A stretch of 64,000 nucleotides of DNA from contig NC_005027.1 in NCBI RefSeq assembly GCF_000196115.1, positions 4,960,001 through 5,024,000 on the forward strand. The letters run 5' to 3'. The notes under the pieces were generated by a model that saw nothing but the letters and a program-made list of their open reading frames with translations, did not search any database and was not told the origin of the DNA. Of the stretch, positions 16,960 through 39,800 are shown in pieces. The stretch's first letter is position 1. Each line of letters opens with the position of its first letter. The stretch is from Rhodopirellula baltica SH 1. Its GTDB lineage: Bacteria > Planctomycetota > Planctomycetia > Pirellulales > Pirellulaceae. Position numbers and translations under genes: made by a program.

Positions 16960-18849
16960 CTACTCAGAAGCAACCGGCACTGCTTTGACCGTGTCGCCGA
17001 TGATTCCGACGTGGCAGTTTTCGAGCAAGGTCCCGGATTCGAAGTACACGTTTTTGGCCGCGATCATGTACTCGGTCATCGCCAAGTGATAGCGAGACTG
17101 TGACTCGTTGAGCCGTCGCTGGGCGTCAAGCAATTGCTCCAAACTGATCGGCAACCCCGCCTTGCGGTTGGCCTCGAGAGCATCCAGTGCATCCTTCGAG
17201 GCCAGGTAGCGATTCAAGTTGGTTTCCATCTGGGCGTATGCTCGATCCGTCTCCGCGACCACCGCTAGCAAGTCATGGGTGATCTGCCGCTCTTGCTCTC
17301 GCAACACCGCCCGTTCACGCGCCACCTGAATCTTGGCATGCTGCACCGCCGCGTGTGCTTGGCGAAAACCAACCGGCATACGGAATTCAACTCCGGCTTC
17401 ATACTCTTGGTAGTCGCCGGTCCCAAGTTCGTTGAACGCGGAATCGCTGCCCGCCAAATCCTTGCCGAGACCGCGCAGTCGATACGTGGTGACAAGGTCC
17501 AAAGTTGGCAGTTGAAAGTTCTTCGCCGCGATGACTTCTAACTCGCGACGTTTGACCAGCAACCGCTGTTGCTGCAATTCGCTCCGCATTCGCAACGCGT
17601 CAACCGCCAACGATTGAGAGTCAAAGATCAACGGAGCCGACAAGGGTTCGTCGACAGGACGCAGCAGTTGCCCATCGGCGATCGGCAAACCAATCAACAA
17701 ACGCAAACGACGCTCCGCCGCTTGAACTCCCGTGACGCCCGCGAAGGTGCCGCCAGAGGTGGAGTTGTTGGTTTGGGTTCGCTGAATCAGTTTGCCCGCG
17801 ATCGCGTCTTGCAGCTCTGACACAAATCGGTAGTACTGCTCTCTTGCCAAAGCTTCCGCCGATCCGCCGCGTCGGTTGGACGACTTCTGTGCGTCATAGC
17901 TTCGCCATGTTTCTAAGCTGCGAGCGACTGCTTCTTGCTTGGCGTCGACATCGCGATAAGCAAAGTACAAATCCCAGTACGCATTGATCACGTTGCTGAG
18001 ATAGTTGCGGGCGTCTTCGCGAAACTGAGCGTTGGAGATGTCGCTATTCGTCTTCGCAATCAAGACACCGTTGTACACACCCGGCAAAGCCGCTGGCCCG
18101 GCGATCCGGTTGAATGCCAACCCGCCGCCCTGCAGCAATGGTTGTCGCAATTCAGCGTGCAATTGCGTTTGCCAGGCACTAGGCGTCAGGTTGCCCGTCG
18201 CATTGTTCGCGTCGTAATCCGTGATGCTTCGCAGACTGATCTCCGCACCCGTTGCCGTTCGCTTGGACAACTGCAATACGTAGTCATGCACATCTTGCTT
18301 GAACGCGTTAGCACCACCGCCAAAGAATCGGTTGTTGAACCGACGGTCGTTGTTTTGCCAAGTGCCGACCGCAGTGAGCTGCGCATCAAACGCCGAGAGT
18401 GCGGCTTCCATTCCAAGTTGTGGATCCGTTTGGACCAATCCGGGGCTCTCATCGGTCGTCACCGTCTCAGGTGCCCGCAGCACGGTTGCATTGAGATCCC
18501 GCAAGACCTCACTGTTGCTCATCGCTTGATTGAGAGCTTGCTGCAGCGTCAGGTCTCGGTAATCCGCTTTGGCCAATGCCTCGGGATCTCGTAATGTCAG
18601 CGGTGCAATCACCGGTGTCGTGAGCGTTTCCGGCGGTGCCCCGGCGTCAACGCGAGACATGATCTGATCGACATGAGCCGTGCGATTGCCAATCGTTTCA
18701 GGCAATGCCCTTGACGCACGGCAACCCAACGAACTGATGGCCGGTGCCATCGTCAGAACCATTCCGCCGGCGCACAAAATCCGCCGAGCTCGATGACCCA
18801 ATGCCCATCGAACCATCGAACGACCTGCACTGGGTCGACCTTTGGTCAC
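16960..18849 (-). CDS. TolC-like outer membrane factor lipoprotein
   Basis: A 629-residue outer membrane efflux protein. It starts at a GTG with GAGGGG 5 nt upstream. A basic, hydrophobic N-terminus ends in SSLGC (Cys 43), a plausible lipobox as in OprM-type factors. The body is helical with the two-fold repeat of the TolC family; long amphipathic stretches such as RSELQQQRLLVKRRELEVIA and SLEQLLDAQRRLNESQSRY belong to the alpha-barrel. It would form the outer membrane exit duct. It is divergent, across 227 nt, from two HlyD-type adaptors and an M50/HlyD protein, its likely partners. Confidence 0.85.
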   Translation of the reverse strand: MTKGRPSAGRSMVRWALGHRARRILCAGGMVLTMAPAISSLGCRASRALPETIGNRTAHVDQIMSRVDAGAPPETLTTPVIAPLTLRDPEALAKADYRDLTLQQALNQAMSNSEVLRDLNATVLRAPETVTTDESPGLVQTDPQLGMEAALSAFDAQLTAVGTWQNNDRRFNNRFFGGGANAFKQDVHDYVLQLSKRTATGAEISLRSITDYDANNATGNLTPSAWQTQLHAELRQPLLQGGGLAFNRIAGPAALPGVYNGVLIAKTNSDISNAQFREDARNYLSNVINAYWDLYFAYRDVDAKQEAVARSLETWRSYDAQKSSNRRGGSAEALAREQYYRFVSELQDAIAGKLIQRTQTNNSTSGGTFAGVTGVQAAERRLRLLIGLPIADGQLLRPVDEPLSAPLIFDSQSLAVDALRMRSELQQQRLLVKRRELEVIAAKNFQLPTLDLVTTYRLRGLGKDLAGSDSAFNELGTGDYQEYEAGVEFRMPVGFRQAHAAVQHAKIQVARERAVLREQERQITHDLLAVVAETDRAYAQMETNLNRYLASKDALDALEANRKAGLPISLEQLLDAQRRLNESQSRYHLAMTEYMIAAKNVYFESGTLLENCHVGIIGDTVKAVPVASE

Positions 18850-19076: not shown

Positions 19077-20462
19077 ATGACAGCCACCATTCCATCTCAA
19101 TCCGCCGCGCCGACCGATGAACTGACACCGTATCAACTGTGTCACGACATCGTCGCTCGCACTCGCGCTGACCGAGCGTTGTGGTTCGCGCGGCGAGAGA
19201 ACCAATGGGTTCCGATGGGTTCCTCCGTGCAATCCGAGACCGCGGTGGATTCGCCCGTCGCTCGCGATTGGTCCTCGATCCTTTCGCATATTCAGGAATC
19301 GACCGAGCCCCGAACTGACACGTTCTTTCAAAACCAGCTGGATCGTTATCGCGAGAACTCCGGTGCGCAAACGATATTGATTCTGCCGCTTCGTGCGAAA
19401 GAGGCAACCGAAGCGACGTCGTTCTTAATTCTTGAAACGTTCGACTCGTCAGCACAACAAGTCGACTCGGCAGATCTAAGAGCGGACTGGGAATCGATCA
19501 GCAGCACACTTGCCCCCGCGCTCCAGCGTGCAGTCGACCAATTTCAAACATCGCCGCCACGCCCCAAACGTCGATTCTCGAGAGCAATTTGGGCGACCGT
19601 CCTCGCCGCCGTCACGTTGGTCCTGGCTTTTGTCCAGGTTCCCTTGCGACTCCCCGTGGCAGGCAGCCTGGAACCGATCCACCAACAACGTCTCTTTGCA
19701 CCGACTGCGGCCCGAGTGGTCACGGTACACGTCGAAGATGGACAACAAGTCGAACCGGGCACACTCCTTCTCGAACTGCGAAGCGACGAACTCGACCTGC
19801 AAACCCAAATGGTCGCGGGAAACTTGGCGACAGCGAAAGCAGAACTGGCCGGGCGTCGCACGATTCGATCCGGCCGATCGAACCAATCGAGTTCGTCCGA
19901 CACATCAACCGAGTCGAGCGGGCTGCAATCTTCGACGAACGAATTGGTTCTTCGAGAACGTATTCGATCGTATGAGAAACAACTTGAGCTACTGCAGGCC
20001 GTGCAAGAATCGATGTCGATTCGCTCGACAGTCCGAGGCCAAATCCGACGCTGGGATGAAAAAGAAACCTTGGTGGGACGTGACGTCTTCCAAGGTCAAT
20101 GGCTTTTTGACGTGGTGGATTCATCCGCCGGAATGATCGCCGACCTGGAACTGGCCGAGCAACACATTGGACATGTCCTGCAGGCCCAATCAGAAAGCCA
20201 GCCTTTGATCTGCCGCTTGCGTCTGCGGGCTCAGCCTGATGTCAGCTGGACCGGTGAAGTTCAAGATATCGCATCTGCGGTGCATCCCAATGCCGAACAA
20301 CAACCTGTCATCCGACTCGGCGCCACCGTACCGTCGACTCTAAAAGGTGTCACCGACCAGTCGATGGGCTCGACGGTCGTTGGCGATGTAGCAGCAGGAC
20401 GACGCAGTCTCGCATTCGTCCTCTTTCGTCCCTTCTTCGATTCCCTTCGGGAGATTTGGTAA
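19077..20462 (+). CDS. HlyD-family membrane fusion protein with cytoplasmic GAF-like N-terminus
   Basis: A 461-residue protein. Residues 1-165 are soluble and, by the spacing of strands (TILILPLRAKEA, TSFLILETFDS), could be a small GAF-like sensor; this is weak. One membrane segment follows (AIWATVLAAVTLVLAFVQVP, about 169-188), then a periplasmic adaptor: VAGSLEPIHQQRLFAPTAA, the lipoyl half-motif VEDGQQVEPGTLLLEL, a hairpin and a second half near STVRGQIRRWDEKETL. It is first of a three-gene operon; its TAA shares one base with the next ATG. The cytoplasmic domain distinguishes it from ordinary RND adaptors. Confidence 0.78.
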   Translation: MTATIPSQSAAPTDELTPYQLCHDIVARTRADRALWFARRENQWVPMGSSVQSETAVDSPVARDWSSILSHIQESTEPRTDTFFQNQLDRYRENSGAQTILILPLRAKEATEATSFLILETFDSSAQQVDSADLRADWESISSTLAPALQRAVDQFQTSPPRPKRRFSRAIWATVLAAVTLVLAFVQVPLRLPVAGSLEPIHQQRLFAPTAARVVTVHVEDGQQVEPGTLLLELRSDELDLQTQMVAGNLATAKAELAGRRTIRSGRSNQSSSSDTSTESSGLQSSTNELVLRERIRSYEKQLELLQAVQESMSIRSTVRGQIRRWDEKETLVGRDVFQGQWLFDVVDSSAGMIADLELAEQHIGHVLQAQSESQPLICRLRLRAQPDVSWTGEVQDIASAVHPNAEQQPVIRLGATVPSTLKGVTDQSMGSTVVGDVAAGRRSLAFVLFRPFFDSLREIW

Positions 20463-21586
20463 TGCACCGAGCAATGATCGCAGCGGGACTTTCACTTGTC
20501 GTCGCCTTCCCCGTATTCGCCCAAGACTCGCAACGGACAGTTTCGAACGACTCGCAACAAACAACTTGGATCGGCGATCTGATTGTCACGGCTGCGCAGT
20601 CAGGATCGGCCGTCGCCGTGCATCCCGGACGGTTGGTCAAAATTCATGTGACCGAAGGTGACGCTGTTGATCTCGGTGAATTGCTGGCCAGCCTCGATGA
20701 TGTGGTAGCCAGCCTACAACATCAGTCCGCTGAACAAGATCTCGCGATCATCCAATTTCAAAGTGACCAAACCTTGGATCTCGACGCCGCTCTCGCATTC
20801 CTTGAAGAACAGAAGAGTGCGGCAAGGGAACACGACGCCGGCGCAGCGATTCAAAAACGTCTCGCCGAAAACGACATCCGTGTGCAGGCTGCCCAAAAAG
20901 CCGAAGCGGTTGCCAAGAGCGAATGGACGCGTGCGGTCAACGCGAAGAAAGATTTCGACGACGCGGTTTCGCAATCCGAGATCGATCAATTCCGCCTTGC
21001 TTATGAACAACGAAGTCTGGAAACCCAGCAAGCCATCTTTGAACAAGAGAACGCTCGCTTGGAACAATCGGTCGACCAGGCCACCGCGGCATCTCTGCAA
21101 ACCAAAATCCGATCGGCCGACGTCGCAGTTCGACAAGCTAAGGCAGCGGCGAACGTAGTCCAGCTTAAAAAAAAGCTCAAGGAGCAACAACTCGAACTGG
21201 CACGGGTAAACGTCGAACAACACTCATTGAAGTCGCCGATCGATGGAATCGTGGTTGAGGTTTCGCACCGAGTGGGTGACTGGGTCCAACCCGGAGAATC
21301 GATCGCACGTGTGGTGCGACTGGATCGCCTGCGAGTGGAAGGCTACCTGCCCGCCAAATGGATCCATTGGCTTCGTGACGAATCCGAACCCAAGCTGATC
21401 GTCGAGCTTGCGACAGGTGAGACAACCGAACGAACCGGCGAAGCAAAATTCATCAGCCCCGAAGTCGATCCACTGACCCGAGAAACTCGCTTCTGGATTG
21501 AAGTTGACAACGCCGACGGAAAATTGCTCCCCGGGTCACCGGCTCGACTGTTGCTTCCCAATATTGATCACGGAACAACACGATGA
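20462..21586 (+). CDS. Periplasmic adaptor, HlyD/RND membrane fusion family
   Basis: A 374-residue protein starting at the ATG at 20462, which overlaps the previous stop (TAATG). A signal peptide ends near FPVFAQD. The first lipoyl half is GRLVKIHVTEGDAVDLGELL, then a long alpha-helical hairpin (about residues 80-230, many Gln, Glu and Ala), then the second half SPIDGIVVEVSHRVGDWVQP and a beta-barrel. This is the standard periplasmic adaptor layout linking an inner membrane component to TolC. Its stop overlaps the next start by 4 nt. Confidence 0.85.
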   Translation: MHRAMIAAGLSLVVAFPVFAQDSQRTVSNDSQQTTWIGDLIVTAAQSGSAVAVHPGRLVKIHVTEGDAVDLGELLASLDDVVASLQHQSAEQDLAIIQFQSDQTLDLDAALAFLEEQKSAAREHDAGAAIQKRLAENDIRVQAAQKAEAVAKSEWTRAVNAKKDFDDAVSQSEIDQFRLAYEQRSLETQQAIFEQENARLEQSVDQATAASLQTKIRSADVAVRQAKAAANVVQLKKKLKEQQLELARVNVEQHSLKSPIDGIVVEVSHRVGDWVQPGESIARVVRLDRLRVEGYLPAKWIHWLRDESEPKLIVELATGETTERTGEAKFISPEVDPLTRETRFWIEVDNADGKLLPGSPARLLLPNIDHGTTR

Positions 21587-23793
21587 ATTCCGTGGCCATC
21601 CAACCTCGATTGCGTCCGGATTTGATCTGCCGGATCATCCGCGTTGGGAAAACCTTTCAGTGGGTCATCCGAGATCCCGTGGTATCCACGCGAGGCTCCC
21701 ACGATCGCTCCTCAGCGCAGTGGATGGTCAATGAGCAAGAATTTGCGGTTCTGCAAAGCCTGGATGGACGAAGAACGTTCGAGCAAGCTCACCTTCATTG
21801 CCAACGTCTGCTCGCACCAATCAAACTTTCGCGAGAAGACTTTGCGGCATTCATCAACCAAGCCAATCAAAACACTTGGCTCACCACCGCGTCAGCTGTC
21901 GCCACTCAAGCCATCTCGCAAAGTGAAGCGAGAACCCAGCAATGCGAATTGAAAAAGTCTTTTTGGCAACGTGCGATTAAGAATCCTTTGGCAATTCGAA
22001 TCCCGTTGGTGGATCCCGATCGATGGCTTGATCGACCGGTTCAATTCGTTCGAAACTTTGTTGCAAGGAATCGACCTGCCTGCGTGATCTTTGGCTCAGC
22101 GTGGACCGTGTTCGCAGGAGCCATTCTTCTCAAGCACTGGGAGCAATTGATTCCGGCGATCGGTCAGAGCACCGAGGCGTTGCAATCCCCATCCACTTGG
22201 ATCGTTTTGGCGATTGTGATTTCGGGAGTCAAGCTGATCCATGAACTCGCCCACGCGATCGCCTGCAAATGGTTCGGAGGAAGCTGTCACGAAATGGGCG
22301 TCATGCTGTTATTCGGCATACCTTGTTTGTATTGCGATGTCAGTGACTCTTGGTTGATGCAGCAACCTTGGAAACGAATGTTCGTCTCCGCCGCAGGAAT
22401 CCTGGCTGAATGCGTGATTGGATCACTCGCACTGGTCGCCTGGACTCATTCGATGCCAGGACTGCCGCAAAACATATTGCTGTTTGTATTGATGGTCACA
22501 TCGGTCAACACGTTGATCCTCAACGGCAATCCATTGATGCGTTATGACGGCTACTACCTGTTGTCCGACGCGGCTTCCGTTCCCAATCTAGCAACACGTT
22601 CGCGCAGCGTTTTACAAATGCGATTGCGGTCATGGTTTTGGGGTCTATCTTCGGTTCAAACGGAATTACAGTCCCAACCAACCACGGTGCAAGACGATCG
22701 CGACTCTATCGGATTGCTCGCCTACGCACTTGCAAGCACTGCTTATCGCTTGGTGGTCTTCGGAGCCATCGGTTGGCTTCTACTCAACCATCTCGCGTCG
22801 ATCGGTGCGACCGCCATTGGCATTGTCGCAATCGTGATTCTCCTTTATCGCGTGATGCGAGCTTGGACCGCTCCCATCGTGCGAACTCCATCCGATCTCG
22901 CTCCTGGGAAAGCTCGTCGCCGTTCTCGGTTGATGATTGGCATGGTTGCCGTCTTGTTGCTGGCGATTCTCTTCACACCGATTCCTCACCGCGTGAAGGC
23001 AACGGCGAAGGTTCAACCGATCCAGCAATCAAAGATCTTTGCATTGACCACGGGTCGCCTGGAATCAATTGCCTCAACGGGACAGTTGGTGCGAGTCAAC
23101 GAACCACTCGTCAGGCTGTCAGACTGGAAAACCACCCTCCAAATCGAACGCCTCGAGGGCGAGATTGCTGAGTTGGAAGCTCGCCTGAAGGGCACTCGCA
23201 TGAGCCGCATCCAATCGGACGCCGGAACTACCACTTTGGCCAATATCCCGACCAATGAATTCGCTTTGCAAGCCAAACGCGAAGAACTGCTGACGATCCA
23301 AAAGGAATCGGAGCACCTTGAGATTCGTTCACCTCACGCGGGTCAGATCGTTGCGGTTTCGGCCAATCCCATCACACCCTGGCAGCGATCAAGATCCCAA
23401 ATCGGATGGAGTGGCCAGCCAACTGAAGCGATCAACCGAGGAGCTTGGATCAGCAGCGGAACTCCCATTTGCAACGTCGTATCAAACGATCAACACAAGG
23501 TTTCTGTGTCCGTTGACGCATCGCAGATCGGATGGATACGAGAGGGCCAATCAGCCGTCACGTCGTTCCCTTCAGGCACCACATGGACGGGAAATGTCAC
23601 AGAAGTGGGCACGCGTCCGTCCGAGAATGATGGGACTTACAAAGTCACTGTTGCACTGGATTCAGACAAGCGACCGTTTAATTTTGCTCCACCATCCAAT
23701 TGGACAACCAGCGTGAGCGTGCACGTTGAGCCTTCTTCGCTGTGGAAACGAACCAAGCACTGGCTGGCCACCCACTTCCGTGCGGATAGCTGA
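21583..23793 (+). CDS. M50 metalloprotease-HlyD fusion (peptide zinc metalloprotease type)
   Basis: A 736-residue membrane protein. Residues 1-105 resemble a PqqD-like winged helix (NEQEFAVLQSLDGRRTFEQA). Then comes a site-2-protease-like core: HELAH at 220-224 with glycine-rich KWFGGSCHEMGV after it, and NPLMRYDGYYLL at 316-327 carrying the third metal ligand (Asp 322). Several membrane segments surround these. After the last (LMIGMVAVLLLAILFTPIP) a HlyD-type lipoyl/barrel-sandwich region follows (RVKATAKVQPIQQSKIFALT, then LEIRSPHAGQIVAV). The family is known from peptide export and processing loci. It may process or export a substrate through the TolC-like duct; no candidate precursor peptide is adjacent. 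Confidence 0.82.
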   Translation: MNSVAIQPRLRPDLICRIIRVGKTFQWVIRDPVVSTRGSHDRSSAQWMVNEQEFAVLQSLDGRRTFEQAHLHCQRLLAPIKLSREDFAAFINQANQNTWLTTASAVATQAISQSEARTQQCELKKSFWQRAIKNPLAIRIPLVDPDRWLDRPVQFVRNFVARNRPACVIFGSAWTVFAGAILLKHWEQLIPAIGQSTEALQSPSTWIVLAIVISGVKLIHELAHAIACKWFGGSCHEMGVMLLFGIPCLYCDVSDSWLMQQPWKRMFVSAAGILAECVIGSLALVAWTHSMPGLPQNILLFVLMVTSVNTLILNGNPLMRYDGYYLLSDAASVPNLATRSRSVLQMRLRSWFWGLSSVQTELQSQPTTVQDDRDSIGLLAYALASTAYRLVVFGAIGWLLLNHLASIGATAIGIVAIVILLYRVMRAWTAPIVRTPSDLAPGKARRRSRLMIGMVAVLLLAILFTPIPHRVKATAKVQPIQQSKIFALTTGRLESIASTGQLVRVNEPLVRLSDWKTTLQIERLEGEIAELEARLKGTRMSRIQSDAGTTTLANIPTNEFALQAKREELLTIQKESEHLEIRSPHAGQIVAVSANPITPWQRSRSQIGWSGQPTEAINRGAWISSGTPICNVVSNDQHKVSVSVDASQIGWIREGQSAVTSFPSGTTWTGNVTEVGTRPSENDGTYKVTVALDSDKRPFNFAPPSNWTTSVSVHVEPSSLWKRTKHWLATHFRADS

Positions 23794-23810: not shown

Positions 23811-26800
23811 TCAGTCAGGATCCACCATCGCCGGCCACAACCGCACGGTGCCGTCTTCGGATGCCGTCATCATCAGATCACCCTTGTCGGTCAAATCCAA
23901 CGCGGACAATGCATTTTTGTGACCACGCAGCTCTAGCAGCTCTCGTCCGAATCTCGCTTGCTCGTCATGATTCGCTCCTTGAGCAATCGGATCCCAAACT
24001 CTCACCGATCGATCTTCGCTAGCTGTAAACAACCGAAGCGGATTGGACAGCACGGCTAAATCGGCAATCGGTTCCGCATGCCCAATTAGCTGGATCGGCG
24101 CCTTCATATCAGCCCCTCCCAGCCTCGGGTTTTTGAACCACTTCGACACATCCCACATCCTCGCGACGTTGTCGGATCCACCGACCGCGACCCATCTTGA
24201 ATCATTGGAAAAGCGACCGACGTTCAGTTTACCCAGCGACGGATCCGCCACCAGATTGAGCGTCGCCTTCCCGTCCATCCGCATCAACGTTGCCGCACCT
24301 TGATTGGTCGTCGCCAGCAAGCACGAACCATCCGGGCTGAAATCCAACGAAGCGATCCCACCTTGCAAGATCGGATCGTTCCACTGACGAACGGACTGGA
24401 ATGATCCGGTTTCTTCATCGAAGTCCCAAACACGAACTCGCGAATCGTCGCCGCCGGTCACCAAGCGAAACGTTTCCTTCGGTGAAATTGCAATCGCACG
24501 AACGGTGCCCTCATGAGGCGACTCCAATTTGCCGACTGTCTTTCCCGACTCCGCGTCCCAAACTTTGACACTGCGACTGGCTGTGATTACCCGGCGATCA
24601 CCCCCGGCAAATGTGGCTCGCGTGACCGCACCGTGAGCTCGATAGCTCATTAAATGGGTGTTGGAGTCCCCGTCCCATCGAAACGCCGCATTGCCATGCA
24701 TGGTCACAAAACGGGCACCTTGCAGCGACGCCACCGCCGTGCACTCCCCAATGCGTTCTGGCAACTCAACTGCCGCGACTCGCTTCGCCGTCCCAACGTT
24801 ACCGGACAGATCCCAAGTCTCAACGCGACTGGATCGTCCGCCAGCCGGAGTCACGACCAAACGAGCTAATCGACCATCAGTGGAGAAAGCCGCTCCGCCA
24901 AAGTTGGGACGACCACCAAAGGCACTGGTCTGATCATTCGAGAATGTTTCCGAAAGCAACCGCTGTTGTTTGCCATTGGAAAGATCCCACCAGGTCACAT
25001 TGGAAATCGTTCGGTCGGTTCGCTTCGATTGATCGATTGTGATCGCCTGCCGCCCATCGGGTGAGACGACAAGATTCATCACGAAACCATTGGTGTCATG
25101 GCGGTCCACCCAAGTCCTGTCAGACCAACGCCAACGCATCAACGACTGATTGTCTGATCCAACCCAAACACTTTTTGAATCACCGGCGAACGAAGCCGTG
25201 TTGATGCGAAAGCCAAGAAGATCGTCGATTGGTTCGCCAACCGGCTCACCTGTTTGCAAATCCCATACACGGCCTCGGCCCGCTCGATCACCGCTGAACA
25301 ACCACTGGCTATCAGGAGAAATCGCCAATGCGGCGACGGATTCTTCATGCCCATTCAAACGATGCAGTAACCGAGGAGAGACTTGCTTGGACGGGTCCAA
25401 CTTCCAGACCAAAACATCCGATTCGGCGGAACTGGAACCGGTAGCAAGAAGACTTCCATCTTTCGAAACCGCCAACACATCGTTCAGCCCCGTGCCACGA
25501 ACGCTGCCGAGTTCTGTCCCACGATCGATGTCCCAAATGCGGACCGTCGCGTCGGCATTGCCGAGGAACAACCGGCGATGCACAGGGTCCATTCGCATGG
25601 ACATTGCACCGAACGCGCTGCCTTCTTCCAGTGTTCCACCATCTTCCTCCGACGACGACTGATCCGATGAGATCGTCAGTCGCGTGTCGAAGCGGGAGGT
25701 GCCGGGATCTATCGACAACACTCGCGCCGTGTGATCGCGACTGGATGTCACGACCTTCGTTCCATCGGGGCTGAATCGGGCCGACCAAATTTCATCGTCA
25801 TGAGCGGCCGTTTCGAAGGCGTCCAAACCATCCGCCGCTAAATCTTGATTGCTCGATGCCCGAGCGGAAGTGAGATCCTCTTCCAATCTGCTGTCCAACC
25901 GACCCGTTTCCGATTCCCAATATCGAAGCGTTTGATCGTCGCCCAAAGACAGCACGTCCCCACCTGATGCAGGAACAAACACAGCTGCCTTCACCGCACC
26001 CCCGTGACCTCGCAAAGATCGTTCGCGAGCCCATGGCCCGAGTTCAGCCTCGTGCGGAATGTCTGCGAGCTTCCAAGTTCGCACCACGTAATCCTTGCCA
26101 GCGGTGATCAGGCGATCGATCGTTTTGTCATAACGAATGGCCTGCACCCCGCCACGATGAATTGGTGCGGGTTCGGCTGACGCTTTGGGTTCATCAATGC
26201 GGGTATTAGATGCATCAACCGAAGCCAAATCCTGAACCGCACTTTCAATGCTTTTTTTCGGATCCGCATCAACCAAATCGCCTTGCCCCCAAACGAAAAC
26301 ATTCCCATCGGTGTCACCGCTTGCGAACACGGGAGAGTCATCCTCCATCCAAGCCGACAACGCAGAGACCTCCGAATCATGCTGCATGAAACGGCCAACC
26401 CGCGTCCCCGCTCCGTCTCGATTGACACCGATGTTCCAAACCGCCACACGGCCACGTGCCGAATCGTTTACCGCCGCAGAAACCCAAACCGTTTCACCAT
26501 CGCGAACAGCAGCGACCTGCGTGACCGGACCGACGTGCCAGTGTTCGCTGTAAGCAGGAATGTCGCTTTCATTTCTCGAATTCAAGTTCCAAAGCCGAAT
26601 GGTGCGATCTGTGGATGACGAAACCAAAGTATTCGAGTCGGCAAAACCAAGATCGCTAACCGGTCCGTCGTGCGCCGGCAATCGTGAAACGCGAACGGAC
26701 AAATCCTCGTTCCAAATTTCGATTTTTCCGTCGAGCATTCCGAGTGCAACTTGTTCACCTGATTCATTCATCGCCGCAGCCGTGACGAATCCACCATTGG

Positions 26801-29579
26801 GATCGCTCCATGCTTCCGCCATCGCCAATCGACCAGTATTGGCAAGAGAAAACGTCGCAATCTTCCCATTATCTTGAACAATCAAACCACGCCGAGACTC
26901 ACTCGTTGGAGCCTGAGCCAACAACAATTGATCCGCGATCACAGGTAGCGAAGCGACTGTTTTGGATTGATGAACGGTCGCTGACAACCAGCGCAGTTCC
27001 CACGGTAATGGATCGTTGGGAAACCGCTGTCGATAGTCTTCGGTCAACTCCGAAAGAATCCGTCGAGCGTCGGAGAACTCGTTCCGATCCACACGCGCTT
27101 TGGCCAGCCCGATCTGCGAAACATACGACTCATATTCCGCCTCGGCTCGAGCGATCTCGGCCTTCTCCTGAGCAACCAGGGCGGCGTTTGCACTGATGCG
27201 AGCCTCCTCTGCATTTAACTCGGCGCGTTTTTCGTTGCGTTCCGCTTCCTTCGCATTCTTAACAGCGAGCTTCGCGTTTTCGACGGCTTCCTTTGCATTC
27301 GCGTCCGCCTTCTCCGCGTTTTTTTTCGCTAACTCTTCCCCAGCCAGAGCGCGATCCAAGTTATCCTCGGCCAATTGCAAATTGTTTCTCGCTTGTTTGG
27401 TCGCACCTTCTGCGATTTTCCTTTGCTCCTCAGCTTCCTTGCGTCTCAGCTCCGCATTCTCTGCAAATTGCCGTGCCTCTTGTTCTTTCGCGTTGATCGT
27501 CACCAATGCGAACGCACCGCCGACAAAGATGAACAACAACATCGCAGCGACGGCACGCTTCAAGAACTTGAACCGCGACTCACGAGCCTTGCGATCCTGA
27601 ATGGATTGTTCCAGCTTCGTCGCCAGGGTTTCGTGCTCGGGCGAATCATGCAGCAACAAGCCATCCGGTTTCAGCAACGACAAACCAAGATCAAAGTCTT
27701 TGTTGTCATGAGCTGCGGAAGCGTGAGCCAACCGCGCCCGAGCGATGCCCTCTCGCGCTGTTTGGTTTCCATCCCACAGATGAAGTGCTTCCTCAAACCC
27801 AAACGTCGCTCGTGAGAACAACGTGTACGAAAGCGTCTGCTCGGCCTTGTTCAGATCATCTGTCGCCCTGGCCGCCAACGAGATGCTTTCGGAGTGCGAT
27901 CGGTATTCGCGAATGGCTTCTTGGAACTCGATCACGCTCGAATAGCGGTCTTCGATGCGAGTCGCCATCGCTTTGCGAGCAATGTTGAGCAGTTCGCCTT
28001 CGTGCCGTGGGTCCACTTCGCGAATTTCGTTGGTCGCGACCGCTCGCAAACACTCTCGAACATTCTTTGCGTGGTGCGGCGCCTTGCCGGTGACGATCAT
28101 GAACAGCGTTGCGCCGAGCAAATAGATATCCGCCGCTGGACCGATCGCCTCTAACGGTCCCGTCGCCATTTCAGGCGCCATGAACGATGGTGTGCCACCC
28201 AATCCTTTCGCGGGTGTGATTGAATTGAGTTTTTCAAACTGAGGCATCGCCAACGCGATTCCCCAATCCATCACCATCACGACACCAAAGTCACCTAACA
28301 TCACGTTTTCTGGTTTGATGTCTCGGTGAATGATCCCTCGCGTGTGAGCGAACGCGATTGCGTCGGCCACTTTGATGAGAATCTCGAGATTCTCATCCCG
28401 CGACTTCTCGCCGATGATTTTGTTCCAAGGCGTGCCGACGACACGTTTCATGGCGTAGAACAAAGTGTTCTCACCAGTCACCGCAACGTCGTGAATGGGA
28501 ACGATGTTGGGGTGATCCAAGTCGCCGGTGATCACCGCTTCGGTCAAGAACTGCTGACGCCGGCTGTTCTCAGTGGACTCCAATCTCCCCTGTTTCCGAA
28601 GTGCGTCGCGTTTGTCTTCTTCCAACGGCTTGATGATCTTGACCGCGATCAATCGATCCAAAGATCCTTGCCGAGCAACGAAAACATTGCCCATCCCACC
28701 TTTGCCAAGCAACCGAACCAATCGGTAGTCCGACGCTTCGGTTTCGCTTTCCTGCGGAGTCGTGACTTGCCGCCCACGCAGAGGCAACGACGAACCGGCA
28801 ACCGCCGATCCAAACTCACTAAACGACGCAACCGTCGCCGCACCGGTGTGAAATTCCTGCGACAGTTTGGACCAATAACTCACGTCCTCGGATGTCAATT
28901 CGCGAGGGTTGATGGTTTGACCAATGTCTTCGTCGGTCAGGATGGTTCCCTCGGTCGCCTCGTTCGCATCCTCTCGAGTCTTGGAATTGGCGTGGATGGT
29001 GGGGATCGTTTTTTCCGCCGTTTCATCCAACGTCGCATTGAGATCAACGGTGGCCTCTGTTTCCACCACGGTCAGGTCCGACTCTTGGACGGTTGCGTCG
29101 ACATCGTTCAATGTTTCGTCGACAACCGTGACATTGGAGTCCGATACCGTTTGGTCCGCCTCAAGCAGCGTTTCATCTGGGTCAAAGTCAGCGTCTTCCG
29201 CGACCGTTTCATTCACATCTGAAACCGTCGAAGACGCATCCGCAATCGTTGCATCGGCGTCCGTTACGGTCAGGGAATTTTCAATGATGGTTTGATCGGT
29301 ATCTTGCACCGTCTGGTCGGTTTCCTCGACGGTTTTGTCCAAATCAGCGACCGTCGCATCCGGATCGTTTGAAGGAGCGACCGGAATGATATTGCCTTCG
29401 TCCAAGGTTGCATACAAGTCGACATGATCGACCGTTTCGCTCAGCCCGCGATGATCGTTTCGTTCAATCGAATCGGTTTCCTCAACCGTCTCATCCAAAC
29501 TGAAATGGTTTTCGGTCGCATTCTCATCCTCCGGTAAACCGTGATCTGGTTCGCCTTGTCGATCTTTATCATTCGTCAC
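23811..29579 (-). CDS. Ser/Thr protein kinase with N-terminal Thr heptad repeat and C-terminal WD40 repeats
   Basis: A 1922-residue Hanks-type kinase with a GTG start at 29579 (GGAG 7 nt upstream). Residues 76-177 hold an acidic repeat with Thr-Val/Ile every 7 residues. The kinase domain (about 285-560) has the glycine loop GKGGMGNVF, Lys 314 (AVKIIK), HRDIKPEN with Asp 420, a DWG triplet (438-440) instead of DFG, and APE. A single membrane segment near residue 680 (AVAAMLLFIFVGGAFALVTI) is followed by an Ala/Glu/Lys-rich coiled coil of about 140 residues, then about seventeen WD40-like blades (for example VRLWNLN-, VWDAE- and VRVWDPI-type strands). The kinase is thus cytoplasmic and the WD40 part outside. 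Its start lies within the end of the upstream surface protein gene. Confidence 0.9.
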   Translation of the reverse strand: MTNDKDRQGEPDHGLPEDENATENHFSLDETVEETDSIERNDHRGLSETVDHVDLYATLDEGNIIPVAPSNDPDATVADLDKTVEETDQTVQDTDQTIIENSLTVTDADATIADASSTVSDVNETVAEDADFDPDETLLEADQTVSDSNVTVVDETLNDVDATVQESDLTVVETEATVDLNATLDETAEKTIPTIHANSKTREDANEATEGTILTDEDIGQTINPRELTSEDVSYWSKLSQEFHTGAATVASFSEFGSAVAGSSLPLRGRQVTTPQESETEASDYRLVRLLGKGGMGNVFVARQGSLDRLIAVKIIKPLEEDKRDALRKQGRLESTENSRRQQFLTEAVITGDLDHPNIVPIHDVAVTGENTLFYAMKRVVGTPWNKIIGEKSRDENLEILIKVADAIAFAHTRGIIHRDIKPENVMLGDFGVVMVMDWGIALAMPQFEKLNSITPAKGLGGTPSFMAPEMATGPLEAIGPAADIYLLGATLFMIVTGKAPHHAKNVRECLRAVATNEIREVDPRHEGELLNIARKAMATRIEDRYSSVIEFQEAIREYRSHSESISLAARATDDLNKAEQTLSYTLFSRATFGFEEALHLWDGNQTAREGIARARLAHASAAHDNKDFDLGLSLLKPDGLLLHDSPEHETLATKLEQSIQDRKARESRFKFLKRAVAAMLLFIFVGGAFALVTINAKEQEARQFAENAELRRKEAEEQRKIAEGATKQARNNLQLAEDNLDRALAGEELAKKNAEKADANAKEAVENAKLAVKNAKEAERNEKRAELNAEEARISANAALVAQEKAEIARAEAEYESYVSQIGLAKARVDRNEFSDARRILSELTEDYRQRFPNDPLPWELRWLSATVHQSKTVASLPVIADQLLLAQAPTSESRRGLIVQDNGKIATFSLANTGRLAMAEAWSDPNGGFVTAAAMNESGEQVALGMLDGKIEIWNEDLSVRVSRLPAHDGPVSDLGFADSNTLVSSSTDRTIRLWNLNSRNESDIPAYSEHWHVGPVTQVAAVRDGETVWVSAAVNDSARGRVAVWNIGVNRDGAGTRVGRFMQHDSEVSALSAWMEDDSPVFASGDTDGNVFVWGQGDLVDADPKKSIESAVQDLASVDASNTRIDEPKASAEPAPIHRGGVQAIRYDKTIDRLITAGKDYVVRTWKLADIPHEAELGPWARERSLRGHGGAVKAAVFVPASGGDVLSLGDDQTLRYWESETGRLDSRLEEDLTSARASSNQDLAADGLDAFETAAHDDEIWSARFSPDGTKVVTSSRDHTARVLSIDPGTSRFDTRLTISSDQSSSEEDGGTLEEGSAFGAMSMRMDPVHRRLFLGNADATVRIWDIDRGTELGSVRGTGLNDVLAVSKDGSLLATGSSSAESDVLVWKLDPSKQVSPRLLHRLNGHEESVAALAISPDSQWLFSGDRAGRGRVWDLQTGEPVGEPIDDLLGFRINTASFAGDSKSVWVGSDNQSLMRWRWSDRTWVDRHDTNGFVMNLVVSPDGRQAITIDQSKRTDRTISNVTWWDLSNGKQQRLLSETFSNDQTSAFGGRPNFGGAAFSTDGRLARLVVTPAGGRSSRVETWDLSGNVGTAKRVAAVELPERIGECTAVASLQGARFVTMHGNAAFRWDGDSNTHLMSYRAHGAVTRATFAGGDRRVITASRSVKVWDAESGKTVGKLESPHEGTVRAIAISPKETFRLVTGGDDSRVRVWDFDEETGSFQSVRQWNDPILQGGIASLDFSPDGSCLLATTNQGAATLMRMDGKATLNLVADPSLGKLNVGRFSNDSRWVAVGGSDNVARMWDVSKWFKNPRLGGADMKAPIQLIGHAEPIADLAVLSNPLRLFTASEDRSVRVWDPIAQGANHDEQARFGRELLELRGHKNALSALDLTDKGDLMMTASEDGTVRLWPAMVDPD

Positions 29580-32178
29580 GATCAGGCTCCTTGTTTGGGA
29601 GTTGATCCGAATCCAACTCTTCTAAGTCGAGCGGAATCAAACGCAGCGTTCCCGCTTCCAAGTCATCACCGGTTTGAATCGGACGTCCATCTCTCAGTTC
29701 AACCTGCAGAATCGTGCGTTCATCCGACTCGCCAATCACATATTGAATTTCGTACTCGCCATCGGGAAGTTTCGAAAAGAGTCGGTTCAAGGAATCACTT
29801 TCCAAGGATCGGTCCGGCAAACGCACCGGTTCGATCAGATCCGCCGCTTCGGGATCGGGCGAAAGAGCACGAAGCTGAAAGAACTCCTCCCGAATCGCTG
29901 TTGGACTGGACGAAGCTTCGGACGTTTCAAACGTCACGCTCGTGAGCGTTGTGGTGGTCGTTATCACGACGGGGGTCACCGGATCAACCGGCTCGGGAAT
30001 CACATCTCGGACAGGCAAAAAAGCAAGCGGAACATTCACGCGTGGAATGACAAAGAACGCTGCCCCTGATTCCAGAATCGGACCAGCTGAGGTTTGTGTC
30101 AAAGGATTGTCCGTTGATGAAATCACGCTTCCGGGAACATCCAACGAAACGAGAAGTCCGTCCGTGTTGGGTTGCGTGATGGATTCGCCGATCAACTGGA
30201 TCGATTCATGATGCTCCACCGCAAACAAAACGTTCAACGGGTCGGTGGCACTTCCGCGTCCATTCAATGTCGATTCGAGAATATCGTTTTCTAAATACAC
30301 ATGGCTGACACTGGTCGTTTGAAACGATCCAGGAAGATTTTCGACACGTTGGAACCGTTCCGTTTCGGCTCCCCAGTCAACAATCAATGTCAAACCGTTT
30401 TCACCTTCGGTTCCGAGATTGACCGACAGAATTCCCTCGGCGTCATTGACATCAAACTGTGACAGGATGTTCGTGCGAATGGAGTCATGCTGATAGAACG
30501 CTTCGGTCAATTCACCAGGTTCCGGCGCAACCGGAGGAGCAGCCGGACGGGGCGGCAAATCGGGATTGGGTGGAACAAGGTCTTCGGGATCGAGTACCGG
30601 TCGCGGTGTGAATTGTCTCGCGATTCCGACGCCATCCCCGGTATTGATTTCGAATTGCCGACCGAGTTCGATCGCGGGTGCAGAAAGTGTCACCGCGCCG
30701 GCTTCAATGGATGCCGCTTGGATCTGCACATCATCCAACGCCACAATCCGTTGTGAGGATGACAACCGCACTCGGCCGTCGGTCCCAAGTGCCACGACTT
30801 CGGGATCCAACTTGCGATCGGGTCCATCCTCGACGGATTCATCATCCATCAAAATCAAATCGCCCTCAGCGTGCACGTCAACGAACCCATCGCCGGCCAT
30901 CACGTCTTTGATGATCACATCACCATCGTTGCGAACCCAGATGGAACCTTGGTGAACGATTACTTTTTCGAGAGTCAGATCAAGTCCACCGAATTGTTCC
31001 AAACGAAAGTCGCCCGCGCCAAACTCGACGCGCGCAACCACCGGTTCGTCCACCGCCAACCAAACCAAGTCCACGTTTCCATCACCGGCATCAACGTCCA
31101 ATTGAGTCACCGATTGCAACTCCAACTCTCGTATGTTGCCGATGCCGTCGTTTGCTTCAAGAAGAAGATCGTCTGCAATAAAATCAGCCAAATTGTCCAC
31201 GGCGGAATCGTTGATTGAATTCGCAAACACCTCGACTCGCGCGTCGCCGGCATCGATCTGCTCCACAATCAAATCAGACTGGCTGACCAATTGCACATCT
31301 GCATTGGTCGTGAGTATTCGGACGTTGGAAATTTGGTTGCCGGATTGATTCAACGTCACTTCCGCATCCGCGGTTACATCTAAGTCGTCGACCACCAAAG
31401 TACTGGTCGCCAACTGACGAACCGCACCTTGACCAGTGACTTCCAACACCGGCGTGGTCAAATGCGATTCCAAAACCAGATCGTCTTGCAGCCCGATCAA
31501 TTGCACTCGGTCCTGAACCGTGGTGGTTGCTTCTCCCAAGTCGACGCGTCCGACATCCTCGGTGGTCAGTTCGTTGATGTTGACGACCGACATCCCCAAC
31601 TCAGGCAACAACGCGAATGATGTCGTTGCGTTCCCGCGGACCGAGATCATCTCCGCCGATACGTCGACATTGTTTCCTATGGTTGATGGCGAAAGCACTT
31701 CGACATCCACGCTGTCGTTTCCGAGCCCGCCGCGAACGGTCGCATCCAAACCATCAGGCAATCGCAAGAGCAACGAATCGTTGCCAGCCCCCAAGTTCAC
31801 TCGAACGCGGCCACCGGTGATAGCGTCGACGCCGATTGAATCGACCTGAATCGGATTGCCAATCACGTCTTGGCCAATCGTGATGGGGATGATGCCGGTT
31901 ACCGAATCTGTGAACTGAAGTTCGCCGCCCGGAGTGAGCGATGATTCGATGGTGTCAAACCCCGCGTCCCCTTGAACCAACAATTCACCCAACGCGGTCA
32001 ACTCGGCAGTCGCATTGAGAACCAATCGTTTCTCAAGCGGACGAATGCTGGGAACAAACCGGGCCGGCGGCCTGACTTCGGCGGCATCGGCTCGAGTCCA
32101 TTTTGCCCACGAACGCGACCAAATTCGCGACGCCTTCGGCCTCCAATCGCGAGCCAATTTGGACTGGAGAAATCGCAT
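29569..32178 (-). CDS. Large surface protein with LEPR-XLL-like N-terminus
   Basis: An 869-residue protein of unknown function. Residues 48-56 read LEKRLVLNA, a variant of the LEPR-XLL motif at the N-terminus of many giant planctomycete secreted proteins. The rest is acidic and beta-rich with short parallel-strand-like repeats (DVDAGDGNVDLVWL, DVHAEGDLILMDDES, TVRGGLGNDSVDVEV), suggesting a beta-helix or filament. A proline-rich stretch lies near residue 540 (NPDLPPRPAAPPVAPEP). It is followed without a gap by the kinase-WD40 gene, whose start overlaps its stop by 11 nt, so the two are probably co-translated. No clear ribosome-binding site was seen for the ATG at 32178. Confidence 0.75.
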   Translation of the reverse strand: MRFLQSKLARDWRPKASRIWSRSWAKWTRADAAEVRPPARFVPSIRPLEKRLVLNATAELTALGELLVQGDAGFDTIESSLTPGGELQFTDSVTGIIPITIGQDVIGNPIQVDSIGVDAITGGRVRVNLGAGNDSLLLRLPDGLDATVRGGLGNDSVDVEVLSPSTIGNNVDVSAEMISVRGNATTSFALLPELGMSVVNINELTTEDVGRVDLGEATTTVQDRVQLIGLQDDLVLESHLTTPVLEVTGQGAVRQLATSTLVVDDLDVTADAEVTLNQSGNQISNVRILTTNADVQLVSQSDLIVEQIDAGDARVEVFANSINDSAVDNLADFIADDLLLEANDGIGNIRELELQSVTQLDVDAGDGNVDLVWLAVDEPVVARVEFGAGDFRLEQFGGLDLTLEKVIVHQGSIWVRNDGDVIIKDVMAGDGFVDVHAEGDLILMDDESVEDGPDRKLDPEVVALGTDGRVRLSSSQRIVALDDVQIQAASIEAGAVTLSAPAIELGRQFEINTGDGVGIARQFTPRPVLDPEDLVPPNPDLPPRPAAPPVAPEPGELTEAFYQHDSIRTNILSQFDVNDAEGILSVNLGTEGENGLTLIVDWGAETERFQRVENLPGSFQTTSVSHVYLENDILESTLNGRGSATDPLNVLFAVEHHESIQLIGESITQPNTDGLLVSLDVPGSVISSTDNPLTQTSAGPILESGAAFFVIPRVNVPLAFLPVRDVIPEPVDPVTPVVITTTTTLTSVTFETSEASSSPTAIREEFFQLRALSPDPEAADLIEPVRLPDRSLESDSLNRLFSKLPDGEYEIQYVIGESDERTILQVELRDGRPIQTGDDLEAGTLRLIPLDLEELDSDQLPNKEPDRDE

Positions 32179-36729: not shown

Positions 36730-36809
36730 CCCATCGACCCCATCACATCCTTCCATTCCTTCAGCTGACCTGAACTCCCTCGCGTCCAACTGAAATCAAT
36801 GTGCGGTAC

Positions 36810-36816
36810 AAGGAGG
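36810..36816 (+). promoter_or_regulatory. Ribosome-binding site fixing the start of the SdrD-B protein
   Basis: AAGGAGG, a full Shine-Dalgarno sequence, lies 8 nt before the GTG at 36825. It decides against the GTG at 36801, which would place this site inside the coding region. Confidence 0.85.
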
Positions 36817-36824
36817 TACCAAAC

Positions 36825-39800
36825 GTGATCTGGAAACGTCTCGAACGATTGCTAACACCCAACACTTCTGCTTCGACCGGGCGGAAGATGCGCATCGAGT
36901 CGCTGGAGAATCGTCGTTTGATGGTGGCGGATCCGATCCATGTGGGATTGGTCTATCTGGAAACGGACTACTTGGAATCCGACCAAGACGTCGGCAGCGA
37001 CTCCAAAGGTGACCGGTTTCTGCTTTCGTTCACCGGCGGAGCCCCCGGCACCGAGCTGACGGAATTGATCATCCGCACGGACAAAGACGGCGACGGAATT
37101 TCGGTTGGTGACCCGATCTTTGATACCGAAGTGGGCGGCCGCGGTAAAAACGGTGCGCATCCATTCACGGTGCAAAAAATCGAGACCCTTGATGGGACTC
37201 CCGCCGATGTGACCGCAACGGTGGACGATGGTGGACAAGTTTTGAAGCTGAACTTTCGTGGCTTCAGCGCTGGCGATCGCTTGGAGTTCACGATCGACGT
37301 GGACGAAGTGCTGCGCAACCTTCCCGACCTGGAAGAGTTCAACCAACGACTCGACGTGATCACGTCGGGGCAAGAGTTTCAAGATTCAATTTTGGAAGCC
37401 CTCTTCGAAGCTCCGGACTACTACGCTGCCGAAGCCGACGCGATCTTCTTGAACGACTTCGGGGATCCAGCCCGAGACTACGGTTTGGATTTGCCGCCGG
37501 ACGAAGGCACCGACATCGACAGTCGCCCCAACCGATCCGCCGCCGCGGTCGGAACTGCGACGCAAACCCCAATCCCCGCCTCGATCGGGGGTTTTGTCTA
37601 CCGAGATGACAACGACTCCGGAACCAAAGACGCCGGCGAAGTGGGCCTCGGTGGCGTCACCGTTCGATTGATCCCCGTCGACACGATCGCGCCACAGAAC
37701 CAGCTCGAGACCAAAACCAACGCGGACGGTTCGTACCAATTCACGAACTTGATGCCGGGTCGCTATCGCATCGTCGAAGTCGACCAGCCCGCCGATTTAG
37801 AAGACGGTAAAGACGCCGCCGGTACCATCGATGGCCAAGTCGTTGGTTCGGCGATCAACCCCGGCGACGAAATTCGCGACATCGTTCTCGGTGGCGGTGA
37901 TGTCGGGGTGGAGTACAACTTTGGCGAAGTCCCGCTGGGATCGATCGGCGGCTTTGTCTACTTGGCCGCTCCGGGTGCCGACTGCGATGGCGATCATGAC
38001 GAAGGCGACAGCACGCCTTTGCAAAATGTCGAAGTTCGTTTGATCGACGAACAAGGCAAATTGGTCGCGACGACGCGAACCGGTGCGGACGGCAGCTACC
38101 TCTTCGATGATCTTCGCACAGGTGTTTACGAGATCGTCGAAATCACTCCCGATGGCTTGCTGGACGGCGGGTCACATCCTGGAGAAATTCGCACGATCGC
38201 TTCGAACATCTTCGTGCCCGTGGGTGGATCCGTCGACGGCGGCCGAATCACCAACGTCGCGTTGCCACCCGGCGGCGAAGGTCACGAGTACAACTTCTGC
38301 GAAGCCGCACCAGGATCACTGTCCGGTGAGGTCTATCATGACCGCGACAACGATGGAACTCGAGACGCCGGTGAAGAAGCCATCCCCGGCACCCAATTGG
38401 TGCTGGTGGGTTCGGACGGAAACGTTGTCGCCACCACCGTCACCGGTCCCGATGGCGCGTACAAATTCAGCGGTTTGGCGGCGGACACCTACCGCATCAT
38501 CGAAACACAGCCGCTCGGCTACATCGACGGCATTGACTCGGTCGGTCAAATCAACGGAACCACCGTTGGTGGTTTGGGGTCAGATTCAGACAGCTTCGTC
38601 AGCATCACGCTGCGTCAGGGGCTGCACGGCGTCAACTATGATTTCGGTGAGCGCCAACTCGCTTCACTGAGTGGACGCGTGCACGTTGACTTCGACGAAG
38701 ACTGTTTCAAGGACGATGACGAACCAGTCCTAGAAGGCGTGACCATCACGTTGGTCGACGATAGCGGCAATCAAGTCGCGCAAACGACAACGGACGCCGA
38801 CGGTCGCTACTACTTCACCGATCTGATTCCCGGCAACTACTCCGTCATCGAAACGCAACCGGAAGGCTACTTCGAAGGTGGAGCCAAACCCGGATCGGCT
38901 GGCGGCGTCAGCGAAAACGGCAGCCGCATTGGTTCGATCACGTTGACGTCGGGCGAAGTCGCGGTGGACTACGACTTCTGCGAACGACCACCCTCGGAAA
39001 TCTCCGGGATCGTGTATGTCGATCGTGACGCCGACTGTTTCCGCGATCCTGGCGAAGAAGGTCTATCGGGCGTTCGCATCGAATTGGTCAACGAAGCTGG
39101 CGACGTCATTGCCACCACGCTGACCGATGCCTCGGGATCCTACAAATTCACTTTCTTGCCAGCGGGCTTCTATACCGTTCGTGAAATCCAGCCGAGCGGC
39201 TATTTCCACGGCGGCCAGAAAGCAGGCAGCCACGGTGGCAACGACTCGCAAGCCGATGTGATTTCGACCATCGACATGGGCTGGGGAGAAACCCTGACCC
39301 AGTACAACTTCTGCGAACTGTTGCCATCCGAATTATCCGGCATCGTGTATGTCGACAAAGATGCGGATTGCTTCCGCGACGCGGATGAAATCGGTCTGGC
39401 CGGCGTGATCGTCGAACTGTTCGATGAAAACGGTGCCTTGGTCGGCAGCACAACCACCGACGCCAACGGTGCCTATCACTTTGGCAACTTGAAATCGGGC
39501 GTCTACACCGTTCGCGAAACGCAACCCGAAGGCTACTTCCACGGTGGCCAGATGGCGGGATCGGGCGGTGGCGATGATAGCGTCGCCGACGTGATCTCAA
39601 CCATCGACATCGGCTGGGGTGTAACGCTCACCGATTACGACTTCTGCGAGCGTTTGCCATCGGAGCTGTCTGGTGTTGTCTATGTCGACAAAGATGCCGA
39701 CTGCTTCCAAGACCACGACGAACCCGGTCTGGGTGGCGTCTTGATCGAGCTGTTCAACTCGGCCGATGAACTGGTTGCGACGACCACGACCAGCGCAGAC

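Follow-up and report, generated by a model that had tools for sequence, protein, structure and literature searches.

What does a long acidic tail studded with threonines do at the N-terminus of a bacterial membrane kinase? The question arises from one gene in the window, that is, the whole 64,000-nucleotide stretch of the Rhodopirellula baltica SH 1 genome analysed here. Its product runs from a Thr-motif tail through a kinase domain, a transmembrane segment and a coiled-coil-like stretch to WD40 repeats. An earlier note had read the tail as an exact seven-residue array that could act as a multivalent, phosphorylated segment on the cytoplasmic side.

The Thr-motif array and its kinase

The kinase gene and its parts are as follows.

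23811..29579, minus strand: membrane Ser/Thr kinase, 1922 aa, GTG start
28911..29489, minus strand: whole T-[VIL] array, residues 31-223, supported by shuffles and by retention in relatives
29046..29354, minus strand: heptad core, residues 76-178, comprising T76-T125 (8 units), T137-T151 (3) and T156-T177 (4)
28896..28919, minus strand: last and best conserved motif, QTINPREL, residues 221-228
28029..28727, minus strand: protein kinase domain (Pfam PF00069, 7e-31), residues 285-517
27495..27554, minus strand: hydrophobic segment AVAAMLLFIFVGGAFALVTI, residues 676-695, single predicted membrane span
23814..26882 (limits approximate), minus strand: WD40 repeat region, after about residue 900

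The translation of 23811-29579 contains 24 Thr-[VIL] sites upstream of the kinase domain, with looser-spaced members (T31, T49, T58, T183, T191, T194, T212 and T222) outside the heptad core and a net charge of -50 over residues 20-230. Composition-preserving shuffling of residues 20-205 showed that the array is non-random: Thr pairs at distance 7 numbered 15 versus 4.2 +/- 1.8 expected, T[VIL] 21 versus 6.2 and T[VIL]x[DE] 17 versus 1.7, and 0 of 20,000 shuffles attained any of the three observed counts. All 14 threonines listed in the earlier note (76, 83, 90, 97, 104, 111, 118, 125; 137, 144, 151; 163, 170, 177) are correctly placed and each is followed by V, I or L; its limits, 29047-29352, fall within 1-2 bases of those computed for residues 76-178 (29354-29046). 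Its three period-7 blocks were also recovered, except that the third has four units, with T156 in register with 163/170/177, and its extent was underestimated, the real span being T31-T222. The closing QTINPREL can be aligned in most orthologues and lies just N-terminal to a conserved Trp segment.

With its catalytic Lys, HRD, metal-binding Asp and a confident AlphaFold2 kinase fold, the catalytic domain is of the Hanks Ser/Thr type. The catalytic Lys, HRDxKPEN and the D of DWG are invariant in 21 aligned orthologues; DWG takes the place of DFG in 21 of 21, a signature of the family. Kinase domain at 285-517, span at 676-695 and WD40 repeats after about residue 900 place the protein among the planctomycete membrane WD40 kinases, as judged from a sequence-inferred topology, and outside the PASTA kinases, its sensor part being WD40 and not extracellular PASTA repeats. 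Because a basic stretch precedes the hydrophobic segment at 676-695, the N-terminus is predicted to lie inside. The tail is thus predicted on the kinase's cytoplasmic side of the single membrane segment, where the earlier note had put it, and the WD40 part is predicted to be periplasmic.

Such a tail is not a general habit of kinases in this genome, a possibility we rejected: among its 60 kinase-domain matches, the N-termini of 43 other kinases were checked and carried no comparable tail. Two long, sensor-bearing kinases (L094, L099) have a mild excess of T-hydrophobic pairs, spread over folded domains. Four successive heptads, written as a DNA pattern (ACN-VTN), occur only inside the array in the 7.1-Mb genome, and the array used as a search query retrieves orthologues only.

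We favour, at a probability of roughly one half, the reading that the tail is a disordered cytoplasmic platform for multivalent docking, whose approximately 20 Thr-specific motifs would be phosphorylated and bound by FHA domains. The periplasmic WD40 part would sense a signal, upon which the same kinase or a sister kinase would phosphorylate several tail threonines. FHA-domain proteins would then bind these, either recruiting or clustering effectors at the membrane or bringing in a phosphatase that resets the kinase. We propose that selection acts on the number of copies and on the local motif and not on exact spacing. The computed basis comprises the array itself, Thr-specific conservation, phylum-wide presence, period turnover, predicted disorder and FHA neighbours in some genera. 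Of the multivalent phospho-tail suggested earlier, the selection for Thr and not Ser, the hydrophobic +1 residue, the acidic flanks, the predicted disorder and cytoplasmic placement and these FHA neighbours speak for the idea; a role for the exact seven-residue period was not supported.

FHA genes and other neighbours of the kinase

FHA domains are the best known bacterial phospho-Thr readers, and kinase and FHA genes are frequently neighbours in bacteria. The R. baltica genome holds 11 FHA matches; no FHA gene lies within the 64-kb window, and none adjoins the kinase in this genome or in near relatives. An FHA gene is present in 11 of the 75 orthologue loci inspected, which are up to 20 kb long. 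Six of these 11 (L058, L059, L292, L296, L297, L298), from three genera, have it directly downstream of the kinase on the same strand, at a gap of 100-210 bases by open-frame limits; all six may represent a single event, because they belong to one clade. Elsewhere, the FHA gene overlaps just upstream of the kinase on the same strand (L309), is its divergent neighbour (L313) or lies beyond the OEP gene (L066). Given about 10-20 FHA genes among several thousand, we estimate that well under one kinase-FHA adjacency would be expected by chance. Among 60 relatives, the full-length FHA protein of the L297 type is found only in two genomes, adjacent to the kinase in both. In the R. baltica genome itself, one FHA protein (L068, C1:3808654-3808839) is followed, by eye, by GAF-like and PP2C/SpoIIE-like sequence; by analogy with SLMAP-PP2A, this product is a candidate for a phosphatase that reads the tail.

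These neighbours bear directly on the main rival, a tethered substrate or timing tail that works without a reader. Here the repeats would occupy the kinase's own active site, as substrate or pseudosubstrate, and multisite autophosphorylation would buffer or time activation. Motif and kinase do share one chain, Thr specificity and acidic flanks match a kinase consensus, and a high copy number suits a counting or buffering device. The Thr-over-Ser bias could come from kinase preference alone, a point against the docking platform. We nevertheless consider this explanation unlikely, since the array is predicted to be disordered and sits some 60-250 residues from the kinase domain, a pseudosubstrate needs one or two copies whereas up to 30 are kept in an array, and the adjacent FHA genes are left unexplained.

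The other neighbouring genes are as follows.

29569..32178, minus strand: large predicted surface protein, weak DUF5649 match
21583-23793, plus strand: M50-peptidase/HlyD fusion, export neighbour
19077-20462 and 20456-21586, plus strand: HlyD-type adaptors, export neighbours
16960-18849, minus strand: OEP/TolC-type gene, export neighbour

The stop of the surface-protein gene lies inside the start of the kinase gene, an overlap of 11 bases, and most of the genus retains the two genes together, as do L038, L043 and L045. The set of HlyD, HlyD, M50-HlyD and OEP genes flanks the kinase here, in L031-L035 and in L038; in L066, which belongs to a different family, an export set stands beside the kinase in another arrangement. 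That the kinase controls export or the cell surface is at most a reasonable guess. Literature searches returned nothing useful on planctomycete kinases with WD40 and HlyD, and no Rhodopirellula phosphoproteome was found. Two further observations concern these surroundings: the M50-peptidase/HlyD fusion shows sub-threshold similarity to a daptide HExxH protease model, and positions 36801-42071 encode a protein of 1756 aa that resembles SdrD-B repeat adhesins and begins with a planctomycete extracellular motif.

Conservation of the motif and turnover of its spacing

Alignment of the tail with four close orthologues (58-84% identity across the whole protein) revealed that motif threonines are retained at 66 of 72 aligned sites (92%), compared with 6 of 37 (16%) for serines of the same stretch and 193 of 367 for non-motif residues altogether. 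The Fisher p of 6e-11 for motif Thr versus non-motif residues is a guide only, because the four genomes are not independent. The +1 residue is V, I or L at 69/72 sites and an acidic +3 is still acidic at 56/63; the +2 residue is kept at 19/72. At the retained motif threonines, 37 of 66 codons differ synonymously, indicating that Thr is held by protein-level selection and not by recently shared DNA.

Related kinases are present in 36 of 60 relatives and in 59 of 292 genomes phylum-wide. In 64 orthologue N-termini, whose start codon was guessed as the first Met and which are related to each other, T-[VILM] occurs 799 times versus 277 expected (2.9-fold) and S-[VILM] 280 times versus 296 (0.95); the T-[VILM] excess is individually significant at p<0.05 in 59 of the 64. 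Pooled flanks are enriched for D/E at -4, -2, +2 and +3 and for Q/A at -1, and the conserved motif reads [DE]x[DEG][QA]-T-[VIL]-[DE]-[DE/S]. The +3 position is acidic in the near clade and often S, L or P in other orthologues; the classical FHA preference at +3 is therefore not uniform across orthologues, which we count against the FHA reading. In many orthologues outside the window's genus (L046, L048, L049, L053, L054, L257, L263 and others), a zinc-ribbon-like CxxC...CxxC module precedes the Thr-motif tail; it is absent from the window's clade.

The same conservation weighs on a second alternative, in which a partner would bind T-[VI]-acidic as a short beta strand, through avidity and without phosphorylation. 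T, V and I favour strand, the acidic flanks resemble those of other strand-addition motifs, and the motif is conserved independently of spacing. Strand propensity alone, however, does not explain why Ser-hydrophobic pairs are unenriched, and motif Thr changed to V or S at just 4 of the 72 sites in the close orthologues, making unphosphorylated docking a doubtful explanation.

The spacing of the motif, in turn, is anything but constant. Period 7 occurs in a clade of six genomes forming one supported branch, the sister clade has period 12 (13 consecutive units in L042), and other periods are 6 (L039), 8 (L277/L304) and 16-18 (L059, L063, L285), the rest being irregular; the motif is enriched even where spacing is irregular. 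We therefore rejected the idea that period 7 is functional per se, as one kinase family keeps its motif at periods of 7, 12, 6, 8 and 16-18, and with it the weight that the earlier note had given to an exact heptad. The note had also proposed the Thr positions of relatives as a test: the positions are kept in the nearest clade only, the motif phylum-wide.

Beneath the window's array, Tandem Repeats Finder detected no DNA repeat, and the pattern is thus held at the protein level; a DNA tandem repeat as its cause was rejected for the window. Repeat units of 18, 36, 102 or 180 bases do underlie some orthologue arrays, with DNA tandem repeats of 180 bp at 87% in L042, 102 bp at 92% in L063 and 18 bp at 95% in L039. 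The simplest reading of this history is that tandem duplication lengthens the arrays and that the motif is then retained. These recent repeats could suggest that the tail is merely a product of duplication, a low-constraint acidic linker whose pattern has no specific role. We regard this as very improbable: motif threonines in the window's protein are kept amid diverging neighbours with no DNA repeat to account for it, and irregularly spaced orthologues are enriched too.

Least credible of all is a repetitive structured element, such as a solenoid or a beta-roll in which each coil takes up 7 residues. Although the period is exact within blocks, it varies among orthologues, and AlphaFold2, from a shallow 13-row alignment, gave pLDDT <50 over residues 1-226 (near 30-40), one short helix and no repeat structure. 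The tail is accordingly predicted by this model to be intrinsically disordered.

Extending the favoured docking-platform reading beyond the window, we tentatively suggest, at somewhat less than even odds, a phylum-wide family of receptor kinases bearing a phospho-Thr array as scaffold, in which selection would act on valency and motif but not on spacing, and arrays would be repeatedly rebuilt by tandem duplication. In Candidatus Uabimicrobium amorphum, a remote kinase (L150) has its own short T-hydrophobic array before the kinase domain (TFS, TIF, TFS, TID, TFS, TLQ, TFS, TVA), so the device may extend beyond this kinase family.

Relation to known systems

Planctomycetes encode dozens to hundreds of Ser/Thr kinases with hardly any known wiring. 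A phylum-wide Thr motif with an FHA neighbour in some genera points to a kinase and a reader whose pairing can be tested, and supplies a consensus for screening phosphoproteomes. It also shows that bacteria can maintain multivalency through repeated short motifs, which is best known in eukaryotic signalling, despite a changing period. By analogy, such a phospho-scaffold could be a bacterial counterpart of the MST2 or MDC1 type, and might gather FHA effectors into clusters at the membrane.

Planctomycete membrane Ser/Thr kinases with a cytoplasmic kinase and periplasmic WD40/TPR arrays have been described (PMC11032199), and our protein resembles them in domain order and topology; a text search of that paper turned up neither a Thr-motif tail nor a disordered one. 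In the PpkA-Fha system, type VI secretion is controlled by a phospho-Thr that the kinase makes and an FHA protein reads; this phospho-Thr is on TssL and not on a motif array of the kinase (PMC3953482). No type VI secretion genes were seen here; HlyD/TolC-type genes adjoin the kinase.

The closest parallels are the phosphorylated juxtamembrane segments of StkP and PknB and, in human MST2, a linker whose pT-M motifs the SLMAP FHA domain reads. The StkP segment carries seven phospho-Thr, and that of PknB interacts with the FHA protein FhaA (PMC12077195). Like StkP, PknB and PrkC, our protein is a membrane Ser/Thr kinase with a multi-Thr cytoplasmic segment; theirs are phosphorylated, and ours is a candidate for it. 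In those kinases just 2-7 sites occupy the stretch joining the kinase domain to the membrane, and homologues do not share its sequence; here, approximately 20 copies of one motif stand at a free N-terminus. In MST2, T-M motifs are autophosphorylated and read redundantly by the SLMAP FHA domain and MOB1 (PMC5663475). MST1/2 of the Hippo pathway thus share several T-hydrophobic motifs in a flexible kinase segment, but they are eukaryotic, with seven motifs in a C-terminal linker, and their phosphorylation is established, whereas that of our tail is a proposal. With precedents both in bacteria and in human MST2, the mode of action suggested for this tail would not be without parallel.
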